Below, in pieces: positions 38,890-42,996 of a stretch of 49,800 bases of DNA. How positions within the stretch are numbered: position 1 is the stretch's first letter; the number at the start of each line of letters is the position of its first letter. The notes under the pieces are model-generated. The model was not told where the DNA came from and did not search any database. It saw only the letters and a program-made list of their open reading frames with translations. The DNA is taken from the NCBI GenBank assembly GCA_944388545.1, contig CALXJE010000045.1, positions 1-49,800 on the forward strand, written 5' to 3'. The position numbers were made by a program, and so were the translations under genes. This DNA comes from an uncultured Clostridia bacterium. Lineage in GTDB: Bacteria > Bacillota > Clostridia > TANB77 > CAG-465.

Positions 38890-40455
38890 ATGAAGTTAAA
38901 ACGAAGAAAATCATATAAAAATTATTTTATATTGTTATTTTTTGTTATTGTAATATTTATAGTATTAAATTTAGTTAATAGTAATCATAATATAAATATA
39001 GATTTATTTGGAAAAGTATTTAATAATGAAACTATATTAAAAAACGGAAAAGAGTACTATTTACCATATGATTTTATAAAAGAAAATATAGATAATGAAA
39101 TATATTTTGATAATGCTTCTAGAAAAGTAGTTATATCTTCTGATATAGGTCTTTTTAAAGCTAAAGTAGATGATAAGATTATTACAAATAATTTTAAAGA
39201 GGAAAATATTGAAAGTATAGGGATAATAGAAGAGAAAAATAAATATATGTCACTGGAATTACTTAGAAAAGCATACGGTTTAAATATAGAAGTTAGTAAT
39301 AATACAATATATATTTTTGAGAATGAAAATTTTGAATGTAAAGTAGTAGCGAATAATATAGGAGTGTATAAAGAAGGTAATATTAAGAGTAGCATTGTGG
39401 ATTATGTTGATAAAAAGGACAAATTAGTAGGATGTTTTGAAAATGAAGAGTATGTTTTTGTAAAAATAAATGACAACAGTGTAGGATATATATCTAAAGA
39501 TATGCTAAATTATTCTAAAAAAGAAGATGGAGAAGAGATAGAAGAAATAGTAGAAAATAAAGAATATATTTTTGCGGATAATACAAATCAGTTTATTAGT
39601 AAAGATTTATCTATAGATGGAGTATTTGTTAATTTGTTTGATGTTACTCAAATTAATTCAAATGTTAATGTAAGGAATTTAAATAATAAATTTCTTTCTG
39701 ATACTAAGGAAAAAGGATATAAAATTTATGGAATTGTTACCAACGGATATAGTTTGGCAGGATTTAATACATCAACAATATCACAAATTTTATCTGATGA
39801 GTCTAAAAGAATGTCACTTATAAATAATTTAACTGAGAAAATAAAAGAATATAACTTAGATGGAATAGTTCTAGATTTTAGAATGATAAAAGAAACAGAT
39901 ACAAATAATTATGTTCAATTTGTAAAAGAATTTAATGCTTTTTGTAGTAAAGATGTTATTGTTAGCATAAACGGTACTGAATATGAAAATTATATAAAAG
40001 CTATAAATTATTCTGATTTTTCTGTACTTAATATGTATGGACAAAGAGACTTAAATTCAACTGTTGCAGGTTCTATTTCTGAAATACCTTGGATGGAAGA
40101 TATAATTAATAAAACTTTAGAAGAGGCAAATCCAAAAAAATTAGTGATAGGAATAGCAGCTTACTCTATTTTGTGGACAGAAAAAAATAGTAATGTGATA
40201 GATGCAGAAATGTATAATTTAAGCGCTACACAGGATTATATATCTAAAAATAATTTAGAAACAAAATATAGTGAAATAACAAAACAAAATTATATTGAAC
40301 TAAAAAAAGGATCACTTGTATATAAAATGTGGGTAGAAGATAAAATATCAATAAAAAATAGAATGGACATAATTAAATCCAATAATATAATGGGAGTTGC
40401 TATATATAAATTAGGCTATGAAAATAATGAAATAATAGAAAGTATAAAAAGATAA
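38890..40455 (+). CDS. Anchored GH18-like protein with altered catalytic motif
   Basis: 521 residues: basic start and a membrane anchor (about 13-32), a copper-amine-oxidase-N-like domain (YYLPYDFIKENIDNEIYFDN), an SH3-like segment (near 165-205) and a C-terminal TIM-barrel resembling spore-wall GH18 hydrolases (VFVNLFDVTQ; LVIGIAAYSILW). The catalytic motif is normally DGIDIDFE; here it is D324-GIVLDF-R331, with Arg in place of the essential Glu. Hydrolysis is therefore unlikely; glycan binding is more plausible. Site AAGGGGAATTTTGC. Confidence 0.75.
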   Translation: MKLKRRKSYKNYFILLFFVIVIFIVLNLVNSNHNINIDLFGKVFNNETILKNGKEYYLPYDFIKENIDNEIYFDNASRKVVISSDIGLFKAKVDDKIITNNFKEENIESIGIIEEKNKYMSLELLRKAYGLNIEVSNNTIYIFENENFECKVVANNIGVYKEGNIKSSIVDYVDKKDKLVGCFENEEYVFVKINDNSVGYISKDMLNYSKKEDGEEIEEIVENKEYIFADNTNQFISKDLSIDGVFVNLFDVTQINSNVNVRNLNNKFLSDTKEKGYKIYGIVTNGYSLAGFNTSTISQILSDESKRMSLINNLTEKIKEYNLDGIVLDFRMIKETDTNNYVQFVKEFNAFCSKDVIVSINGTEYENYIKAINYSDFSVLNMYGQRDLNSTVAGSISEIPWMEDIINKTLEEANPKKLVIGIAAYSILWTEKNSNVIDAEMYNLSATQDYISKNNLETKYSEITKQNYIELKKGSLVYKMWVEDKISIKNRMDIIKSNNIMGVAIYKLGYENNEIIESIKR

Positions 40456-40551: not shown

Positions 40552-41007
40552 ATGGACTATCATAAAAAAGGTATTACTGTTGTATCTATTTTGATAATTG
40601 TAGTAGTACTTACGGTTTTAGTATCTACAATTACGGTATCATTAAGATTTATACTTCAAGATACATATAAAAAAGAATTTATGAATGAGTATAGTTTAGT
40701 AAAATCTGCAACACAAGACTATATAATAAGAAATAGTGGAATAATAGACTTTGAAGAAATTCAATTTGATTTGTCAAAAGTATCAACAATATATAGAGAT
40801 CAATTTGATGGAGAAACTATAGTAAGTAATAAAATTGATATGTATGTAATTGATTTAGAGAAAATAGGAGTATATAACACTACGTATGGAGAAAAAGCTG
40901 AAGGTGATGATGATGTTTATTTAGTATCCAAAGATAAAAATACAGTCTATTATCAAAAAGGATTTGAAAATGGTGGATATGTATATTACAAAGCAATTAA
41001 AGATTAA
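40552..41007 (+). CDS. Pilin-like secreted protein, short paralogue
   Basis: 151 residues. Prepilin-like start (HKKGITVVSILIIVVVL) with a Gly before the hydrophobic helix but Ser, not Glu, at mature position 5. The C-terminal part (TTYGEKAEGDDDVYLVSKDK then YYQKGFENGGYVYY) is clearly related to residues 100-150 of the next protein. It ends 24 nt before that gene, so they are probably expressed together. AGAGGTGAATAT precedes the ATG. A minor subunit or assembly partner is the likely role. Confidence 0.75.
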   Translation: MDYHKKGITVVSILIIVVVLTVLVSTITVSLRFILQDTYKKEFMNEYSLVKSATQDYIIRNSGIIDFEEIQFDLSKVSTIYRDQFDGETIVSNKIDMYVIDLEKIGVYNTTYGEKAEGDDDVYLVSKDKNTVYYQKGFENGGYVYYKAIKD

Positions 41008-41031: not shown

Positions 41032-42996
41032 ATGAATAAAAGAGGAATATCACTTGTTTCAATATCGATATCTATAGTTATTATGCTAATATTAGTTTCT
41101 GTAATAGGTGTCTCACTTACTTATTCAATTGCAAATGCTAAGAAGATGACATTTGTACAAGAATTATACAATATACAAAGTATAGTAGATGAGTATATCG
41201 AAAAAGAAGGCACTATTCCAGAAATAGTCGAGACACTAGAAGTTACGCCTACAGATACAACACAGTTTGAAGGAGAAGTTTTTAATAATGGTAATATAAA
41301 TTTAGATGTGTTAGATCTTCCAAGTCTTGATATAAAAAATACTAATTATGGAAATAAAAGTATAGGAAATAACGATACTGAAAAAAACAAAGATGTATAT
41401 ACAGTATCACAAACTACAGGAAGAGTATATTATATAGCTGGATTTGAGATAAACGGTAAAATATACTATACTTTAACAGATGAATTATTAAAGATGGTAG
41501 ATAAAAATCAAAATCTTTTAATAGGAGAAAATACAATAGTTTTTACACCAAGTAAAATAGGATGGGGAAATGAAGGAATAGCGGTTACTGTAGCTATTCC
41601 ATCAGAATTTACATCTCCAAGTATTCAAATAAATAATAGTAATATACAGTACACGTCATCTACAAGTAATAATATTAGATATTATAATGTTAATACAAGT
41701 AAGGTCGCAGAGGAGTATACTATAACAGTAAGTTATACTAAAAATGGTACTGCTGCAGCTGCAACATATACTGCTAAGATAGATACAACAGCTCCAGAAA
41801 TAATAAAAAGTGGAGAAGTTGCAAATACATCTAATGAGGTAAAAGGATTAAGTGCGACTGATAGTAAAAGTGGCATAAAATATTTTAAATATGCTGAAGG
41901 CGTTATAGATATTTCAAATGTTAAAGCATATATGGATTCATATGGAAGAAAAATAAATAATGGTTCAATTAAATTTGAAACAAAAACACCTTATACAATA
42001 TATGCTGAAGATAAAGCAGGAAATTATAGAATAGCATATATAGATGTATATGGAAATATAACAAATAATAAACCGGAAAATGTAATTGTACCAGCAGGAT
42101 TTACTCCTTCTATATACTCAGGTGAAAATACTGTAGATGGAGGTTTTGTAATTTATGAAACAGATTCACTAAATGGAATAGCACAAAACACTGCTATGAC
42201 AACATATAATCAATTTGTATGGGTGCCAGTAGATATGTCAGAGTTTACAAGAACAGCATGGAAAAATAATGCCCCAACTTCTGGTTTATCATCAAGTTAT
42301 ACAGAGCCATATTCATATAATACAACAATAACAGAAGCAAATGATTTAACAGGAGAATATGCAGAGTATAAAGCAATGAGAGCAAGTGTAGAAAAATATG
42401 GAGGTTTTTATATAGGAAGATATGAAGCAGGAAGTGAAACTGAGAGGACAAATGTAGCAAATGGAACAACAAAACTAAAAGCAAGTGTAAAAGATGCATA
42501 TATATATAACTATGTAGGATGGGGACCAAGCATGACATCAGCAAGTGGAGATATAACATATAGTAGTAAAAATCAAGGAAAAGGAGCAGTAGAACTATCA
42601 AGAAATTTATATAAAGACAGCACCTCAGTAAAATCAACATTAATATATAGTGTGCAGTGGGATGCAGTATTAAGATTTATAGCAGATGATAAGCATAATG
42701 TAAATGATAGTTCCATATGGGGAAATCATAGTAATAATCCAGATAGAACAAGTGTAAGTCCAAATAATCCAGCCAAAACAGGAGCACATGAAAATTGGAA
42801 AGCAAAGAATATATATGACTTAGCAGGAAATGTGCGTGAATGGACAATGGAGGCCTTTAGTTCTGATTACCGTGTTCCTCGCGGTGGTAACTATTCGGGC
42901 ACCGGTTCTTTCAATCCGGCCTCTTATCGTGGCAACAATAGTCCGTCTTATTGCTACAGTACTAGCGGCTTCCGCTTAGCACTTTATGTAGTGTAG
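41032..42996 (+). CDS. Pilin-like protein with FGE/C-lectin domain; candidate DGR target
   Basis: 654 residues. Order: prepilin-like start (NKRGISLVSISISIVIML, no Glu5), a domain shared with the short paralogue (to about 155), one or two Ig-like domains (about 160-345; TTAPEIIKSGEVANTSNEVK), and a formylglycine-generating-enzyme-type C-lectin domain (about 350-654) with FVWVPVDMSEF, GGFYIGRYEAGS, NIYDLAGNVREWTMEAF and terminal RGGNYSGTG to SGFRLALY. This fold is the usual scaffold of diversity-generating retroelement targets. The last ~50 codons differ sharply in base composition. True FGE function is improbable, as the domain is displayed outside the cell. Confidence 0.85.
   Translation: MNKRGISLVSISISIVIMLILVSVIGVSLTYSIANAKKMTFVQELYNIQSIVDEYIEKEGTIPEIVETLEVTPTDTTQFEGEVFNNGNINLDVLDLPSLDIKNTNYGNKSIGNNDTEKNKDVYTVSQTTGRVYYIAGFEINGKIYYTLTDELLKMVDKNQNLLIGENTIVFTPSKIGWGNEGIAVTVAIPSEFTSPSIQINNSNIQYTSSTSNNIRYYNVNTSKVAEEYTITVSYTKNGTAAAATYTAKIDTTAPEIIKSGEVANTSNEVKGLSATDSKSGIKYFKYAEGVIDISNVKAYMDSYGRKINNGSIKFETKTPYTIYAEDKAGNYRIAYIDVYGNITNNKPENVIVPAGFTPSIYSGENTVDGGFVIYETDSLNGIAQNTAMTTYNQFVWVPVDMSEFTRTAWKNNAPTSGLSSSYTEPYSYNTTITEANDLTGEYAEYKAMRASVEKYGGFYIGRYEAGSETERTNVANGTTKLKASVKDAYIYNYVGWGPSMTSASGDITYSSKNQGKGAVELSRNLYKDSTSVKSTLIYSVQWDAVLRFIADDKHNVNDSSIWGNHSNNPDRTSVSPNNPAKTGAHENWKAKNIYDLAGNVREWTMEAFSSDYRVPRGGNYSGTGSFNPASYRGNNSPSYCYSTSGFRLALYVV
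42851..42980 (+). other. Candidate DGR variable region (VR)
   Basis: By hand count 66 of 130 bases are G or C (about 51%) and only 22 are A (about 17%), in an otherwise very A-rich gene. Upstream Gly, Arg, Ala and Ser codons are mostly GGA, AGA, GCA and TCA; here they are GGT/GGC, CGT/CGC, GCC and TCT/AGC. Most codons end in C or T, as expected if AAC/AAT template codons were rewritten at adenines. The end GFRLALY is typical. No matching template repeat is seen in the window. Confidence 0.65.

Follow-up and report, generated by a model that had tools for sequence, protein, structure and literature searches.

A pilin-like surface protein gene of an uncultured Clostridia bacterium as a probable trans target of a diversity-generating retroelement

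The window analysed here, a DNA stretch of 49,800 nucleotides, carries a gene for a pilin-like surface protein whose 3′ end (42851-42986) is very probably the variable region (VR) of a diversity-generating retroelement (DGR) target served in trans. In the genome to which the window belongs, we observed a template repeat (TR), a reverse transcriptase (RT), bAvd, mismatches biased to adenines, the expected fold, a paralogue family and pilus-type assembly genes. The RT assembled in this genome appears broken, and the DGR may no longer be active. The original prediction had proposed a DGR target at this gene end, and the template in trans, the DGR-type RT and the A-biased mismatches support that reading.

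In the proposed mechanism, the DGR RT and Avd would copy an A-rich template RNA and err at adenines, and the cDNA would then replace the 3′ end of the gene by mutagenic retrohoming. Asn codons would thereby be rewritten in the C-terminal part of the FGE/C-type-lectin-fold domain of the pilin-like protein. One machinery would serve several scattered paralogous genes in trans. The variable residues would bind ligands, presumably for adhesion, and would be displayed on a pilus-like filament or on the cell surface.

Composition and limits of the variable region

The genome in which the window is contig C45 spans 1.15 Mb in 49 contigs and is rated 100% complete and 1.95% contaminated. The segment 42851-42980 has 50.8% G+C and 16.9% A, while the whole window has 26.4% G+C. 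In a sliding count over the whole window, nine of 49,671 segments of 130 bp had a G+C fraction of at least 0.508, and all nine lay inside 42845-42982, so that in its G+C content the gene end pointed out earlier is unique in the window. Upstream of the VR, the target gene had a G+C fraction of at most 0.377 and an A fraction of at least 0.346 per 130 bp. Third-position G+C (GC3) per block of 15 codons was 0.00 to 0.27 before 42832 and 0.40 to 0.53 from 42832 onward, in agreement with the sharp codon switch suspected near 42838. The terminal GFR motif was also found, in the protein end SGFRLALYVV. The VR limits in Table 1 are those of the homology to the template in the target gene. Just 5′ of this tract, the codon at 42834-42836 specifies R, Y, W, H, L or S among the paralogues, within an otherwise conserved GNV-x-EW.

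Table 1. Features of the target gene and its neighbour in the window
Feature	Position	Strand	Basis or remark
Upstream gene, 151 aa, similar pilin-like N-terminus (MDYHKKKG/ITVVSILIIVVV)	40552..41007	+	24 bp before the target gene
Target gene, 654 aa: pilin-like N-terminus, stalk, C-terminal FGE/C-type-lectin-fold domain	41032..42996	+	ends GFRLALYVV
Pilin-like N-terminus (MNKRG/ISLVSISISIVIM...)	41032..41208	+	sequence; cleavage point (slash) judged by eye
FGE/C-lectin-fold domain, residues 345-654	42064..42993	+	model pLDDT 88.6; near solved DGR variable proteins
Variable codon in GNV-x-EW, R here	42834..42836	+	alignment of 11 paralogues
Variable region (VR)	42851..42986	+	110/136 identical to the template repeat G000:C35:1271-1406 (L010)

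Template repeat, RT and Avd on a second contig

We searched the whole genome at the DNA level with 42851-42980 and obtained 23 matching places, the query itself counted. The TR, at C35:1271-1406, is A-rich, lies outside any ORF of at least 50 aa and starts 22 bp 3′ of the end of the RT frame, which is itself preceded by a bAvd-like ORF. The RT scored 31.7 bits against Pfam RVT_1 (cut-off 29.6) and the Avd 44.1 bits against PF22296 bAvd (cut-off 40), although the ORF of the latter is cut by the start of contig C35, which falls within avd. In the RT, motif 4 has its DGR form, IGNYCSQ, and (I/L)GNYTSQ was found in 12 of 12 aligned RTs of relatives (20 relative RT loci fetched). PMC3521204 gives (I/V/L)GxxxSQ as the motif typical of DGR RTs and also describes the exchange of A by DGRs.

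The original prediction had noted that RT and template are both absent from the window, and had supposed a target acting in trans. Both points held: in a search of the whole genome the sole RVT_1 match was on C35, the place in the window next best to the VR matched the template at 58 of 136 positions, and the DGR-type RT with its bAvd adjoins the template on C35, with the VR on C45. We consider it most improbable that the C35 repeat is the decayed end of a target gene instead of a template. The repeat is the exact donor of no VR examined, which would suit such a remnant, but no ORF of at least 50 aa runs over it, and it yields 14 AAY codons when read in the VR frame. It also occupies the same place as the template of the same-genus relative G001, which lies 35 bp 3′ of the RT, and the columns that vary can be predicted from where it has A.

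Mismatches between the template and the VR

An A-biased mismatch between template and VR is the known signature of DGR mutagenic retrohoming. A near-copy differing mainly where the copy has A had been anticipated, and 18 of the 26 mismatches between the window VR and the TR indeed lay at TR adenines, which make up 42 of the 136 TR positions (p = 7.8e-6). All 24 adenines of the VR stood at template A, and the amino-acid changes between TR and VR, ten in total, were all from Asn (AAY codons). Toward the 3′ end, VR and TR have GGCTTCCG in common, beyond which they are unlike at positions 125, 126 and 134; this pattern is at most compatible with the 3′ initiation-of-homing sequence of DGRs (IMH/IMH*). 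Eight VR mismatches were not at template A, five of them in positions 1-124, compared with 0 to 2 in the template-VR pairs of relatives. Judging from these letters, the assembled TR therefore cannot be the exact, recent donor of the window VR.

The target protein and its fold

The predicted FGE/C-lectin gene end was borne out by residues 552-650, which match Pfam FGE-sulfatase. The pilin-like anchor with Ig-like stalks was borne out in its first part: the pilin-like N-terminus is supported, whereas the stalk has no Pfam match and its Ig-like nature was not upheld. The N-terminus scored 14.1 bits against PF07963 N_methyl, under the cut-off of 21.2, and the label was therefore kept to "pilin-like". 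A helix at residues 5-59 in a model of the full-length protein (seven sequences, pLDDT 34) is weak evidence for the same segment, the rest of that model being useless.

We modelled the 310-residue domain with AlphaFold from 38 aligned sequences (pLDDT 88.6). With an E value of 2.1e-6, the top Foldseek match of this model was variable protein 1 of Treponema denticola, a DGR target also known as TvpA. Structural comparisons with VIA-align gave Z scores of 16.8 for TaqVP (3.2 Å, 200 aligned), 15.6 for PvdO, 15.1 for the T. denticola protein, 12.6 to 13.1 for Mtd variants and about 13 to 14 for formylglycine-generating enzymes. Because PvdO and the FGE folds, which are no DGR targets, match about as well, the modelled fold alone is not diagnostic of DGR proteins. 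The Pfam match and the structure model together place the VR at the C-terminus of the FGE/C-type-lectin-fold domain.

A locus on contig C3 encodes A24_N_bact (prepilin-peptidase domain), two T2SSE ATPases and T2SSF, that is, type IV pilus-type assembly genes, and also holds a small protein with the same N-terminal type (L085:486-914). This locus and the pilin-like N-terminus suggest that the target is likely displayed on a type IV-like filament. If so, binding specificity would be set by retroelement writing and not by slow divergence. The 151-aa gene upstream of the target gave nothing above cut-off in family searches, and the two are possibly partners in one transcript. Just upstream of this pair, 38890-40455 encodes a GH18-family protein with a copper amine oxidase N-terminal-like domain.

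Paralogous targets in the genome

The genome contains 17 FGE-tailed genes, to which a gene on C12 with a cut 3′ end can be added; within the list of 17, the C10 gene and one C20 gene lack their 5′ ends at contig ends. Those with a complete start mostly open, as judged by eye, with the pilin-like segment KKGISLIVLVITIIIMIILAGAIIL or a variant of it. Most paralogues are 73-85% identical to the family member C3a, and two are 52-54% identical. When the genome was searched with the template, ten places were found besides the TR, namely the window VR and nine others. For the 17-gene list, the nine template-matched tails had G+C fractions of 0.44 to 0.57, and C40a (0.49) and C26b (0.44) aligned with it over 100 positions, with identities of 74 and 77%. 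All these G+C values are those of the tails themselves, because in low-identity loci the 100-nt best match to the template may lie elsewhere. The six remaining tails had 0.33 to 0.41 G+C and no alignment with the template. The codon shift, whose presence in non-DGR FGE genes had been named as a point against a DGR, is thus not general. We rejected a foreign or codon-biased tail, since these six of the 17 tails, which have no template alignment, also have no strong shift.

The bias toward template A was found at p < 0.05 in 10 of 11 ungapped copies, the C4 copy failing (p 0.11), and two of these ten, C7 and C32, have one common VR. This set leaves out the indel copies (C40a and C26b), C12 and the more diverged tails. 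Column entropy, for which C4 was also left out, was 1.14 bits at template A as against 0.29 to 0.35 bits at C, G or T (10 copies, C7 and C32 both counted). Among 11 paralogues, pN was lower than pS upstream of the VR in all 55 pairs (pN 0.094, pS 0.214), and inside the VR it was higher in 39 of the 55 (pN 0.318, pS 0.292).

These data bear on an explanation with no DGR at all, in which gene conversion would have distributed a G+C-rich tail of foreign or codon-selected origin over the paralogues. The high identity of most tail-bearing genes to C3a would fit such a spread, as would one VR word that is identical in C7, C12 and C32. It would not account for an A-rich near-copy outside ORFs directly 3′ of a DGR-type RT, nor for mismatches biased to A with amino-acid changes all from Asn, and we regard it as highly implausible beside the DGR explanation.

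Non-A differences from the TR at positions 32, 47, 53 and 56 were common to 7-8 of 10 VR copies, and the 11 VR copies examined, two of which were compared for just 100 positions, each differed from the TR at five or more non-A sites within positions 1-124. The shared letters and these numbers of differences indicate that the assembled template was not the last donor of the VRs; as far as sequence comparison goes, the last donor of most of them is another or an older template. A second template guessed from the VR consensus is circular; all we take from it is that the donor was probably a different one. The word common to the ends of C12, C7 and C32 is 127 nt long and identical letter for letter (L021:1-127, L022:1-127 and L024:1-127). 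Upstream of it there is a single flank and downstream there are two, as would arise from strain mixture or from recombination between VRs of different loci.

State of the reverse transcriptase

The reading frame of the C35 RT is interrupted within the catalytic Y-x-D-D, a motif kept in 12 of 12 aligned relatives. Downstream of the break, the frame remains open for ~113 codons in an A+T-rich genome, which suggests that the break is recent, is present in part of the population only or is an assembly error. RVT_1 and DGR RT searches found no intact DGR RT in the assembly and, besides C35, only a 21-aa stub on C47. There (L031:7210-7931), a second avd and the first RT codons are joined directly to a VR-like tail, a 70-aa ORF ending GFRVALYIV, and the RT body is gone. 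The avd/RT start on C47 is identical to that on C35 at 283 of 290 positions, and the joint is apparently an RT-body deletion or a chimeric contig. The DGR either died recently in this lineage or has another cassette missing from the assembly.

Both possibilities are sub-cases of the DGR explanation. To the first, a frozen repertoire in which a DGR wrote the VR, the RT has since been lost and the VRs now change by ordinary mutation and recombination, we give an even chance. It is consistent with the sole RT found being broken at its catalytic motif, with the remnant on C47 and with the non-A differences, at least five, of all 11 VRs examined. The long open frame past the break speaks against it, however, as does the distinctive composition kept in 11 of the 17 tails. 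The second, a DGR still active from a cassette that is absent from the 49-contig assembly and includes an intact RT and a second template as the real donor, seems to us to have slightly less than an even chance. The shared differences at positions 32, 47, 53 and 56 are as expected from a second donor; contigs C7, C12, C24, C32 and C40 end in or near VRs, and C35 starts inside avd; and several relatives (G021, G022, G048 and G052) have at least two RT matches. On the other hand, the genome is rated 100% complete with RT matches only on C35 and in the C47 stub, and an older state of the same template also fits the shared differences.

Comparison with known systems

Our system has in common with Mtd of a Bordetella phage, T. 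denticola variable protein 1 and TaqVP of Thermus aquaticus the RT motif, Avd, an A-rich template and a C-terminal VR in an FGE/C-lectin fold. It differs from them in the pilin-like N-terminus, where those systems have a phage fibre or a lipoprotein, the VR in trans on another contig and the broken state of the assembled RT. More than one VR was reported for 271 of 948 DGRs in PMC6642488, and dispersed paralogous DGR targets in cyanobacterial genomes in PMC7517822. One cassette with several target genes is a feature of those systems and of ours, whereas here the family is modular and pilin-like, the genome has a pilus-type locus and there is probably more than one template.

Pilus-borne targets have also been considered elsewhere. 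PMC6642488 mentions, after an earlier paper, putative pilin structures among DUF1566 DGR targets; PMC12632263 cites a study of Bacteroides type V pili as DGR targets; and PMC6199706 refers to pilin-tip homologues among hypervariable proteins. As in Bacteroides, the DGR would here diversify a pilus-borne adhesin, but one of another filament class (type IV-like N-terminus; T2SSE, T2SSF and prepilin peptidase genes) and in another bacterial class. PilB of Streptococcus sanguinis likewise has a bulky binding module behind a pilin N-terminus in a monoderm, and retroelement diversification is not mentioned in the portion of its account available (PMC8179133). A global survey describes cellular DGR targets as being, for the most part, membrane-anchored binding proteins (PMC8144416).

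Published work thus already covers DGRs as such, their C-lectin targets, templates that serve many targets, and targets borne on pili (PMC3521204, PMC6642488, PMC7517822, PMC6199706 and PMC12632263). In the accessible portions of the DGR literature on type IV pilins and pilins, we did not find an arrangement like this one described. What sets this system apart is the dispersed pilin-like target family together with an apparently broken RT; the mechanism itself is known. Through it, machinery for targeted mutation is connected with an entire set of related proteins of uncultured Clostridia that are probable pilus adhesins. The system also offers a natural case of a mutator that is seemingly breaking while many of its products persist, and provides a concrete template and target list for testing in reads.

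Related cassettes in the order

RT matches were found in 26 of the 56 genomes searched (own genome counted), not all of them DGR RTs, and target-protein matches in 40 of the 56, many through the N-terminus alone. A template-target scan of 22 loci (20 of relatives and two of our genome) gave 10 credible pairs, two chance pairs and no pair at the other ten, both loci of our genome included. The chance pairs, the best ones in G054 and G042, were low-complexity matches and were dropped. Mismatches at template A and elsewhere numbered 14/0 in G001, 18/0 in G049, 22/0 in G052, 8/0 in G021:C107 and 19/0 in G021:C57, and 21/2 in G019, 16/2 in G010, 17/2 in G047, 28/2 in G045 and 13/2 in G004. Five of the 10 same-order pairs thus had no non-A mismatch and the other five had two; because the scan favours A mismatches, the A bias of the pairs is partly built in, but the zero non-A mismatches in five of them are not.

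The RT frame was unbroken at nine of the 10 pair loci. The exception, G047:C26, has its RT split into two frames (L078:6633-7671), and broken RTs beside VR-bearing targets may recur in the order. By a simple text pattern, nine of the 10 pair targets have a pilin-like start, that of G049 having none. In G001, of the same genus, the target, an accessory gene, Avd, an intact RT and the TR lie on one 6-kb contig (JAQUBQ010000064.1).

We tentatively propose, while thinking it rather more likely wrong than right, that DGRs in this order keep a bank of at least a dozen dispersed, modular pilin-like proteins whose tips would be rewritten in trans, with a single template or a small number of them as the source. 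This would amount to a heritable repertoire, antibody-like in kind, of binders at the pilus tip; it could freeze on loss of the RT and still be retained. In G052, a trans target on C7 had 25 of 29 mismatches at template A. Several results from relatives count against a many-target rule. The G001 template matched well only its neighbouring VR among 12 G001 loci, with two others weak and partial (ungapped search, by which indel copies could be missed). The G004 template matched nothing in its own genome but itself and the cis VR, and in G021 it matched the C107 template and VR. The G052 target on C11 had no A bias (25/59, p 0.16), although its alignment, made without gaps, could be misplaced.

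In several of the cassettes, avd is preceded by an accessory gene of 136-175 aa (L032:2573-3100, L064:6915-7352 and L075:7047-7457); the one tested, in L032, gave no family over the cut-off. Exact pattern searches with the template and its flank gave no matches, and neither did the target protein against viral_contigs. The C35 RT matched three distant loci in viral_contigs, at 34-38% identity.
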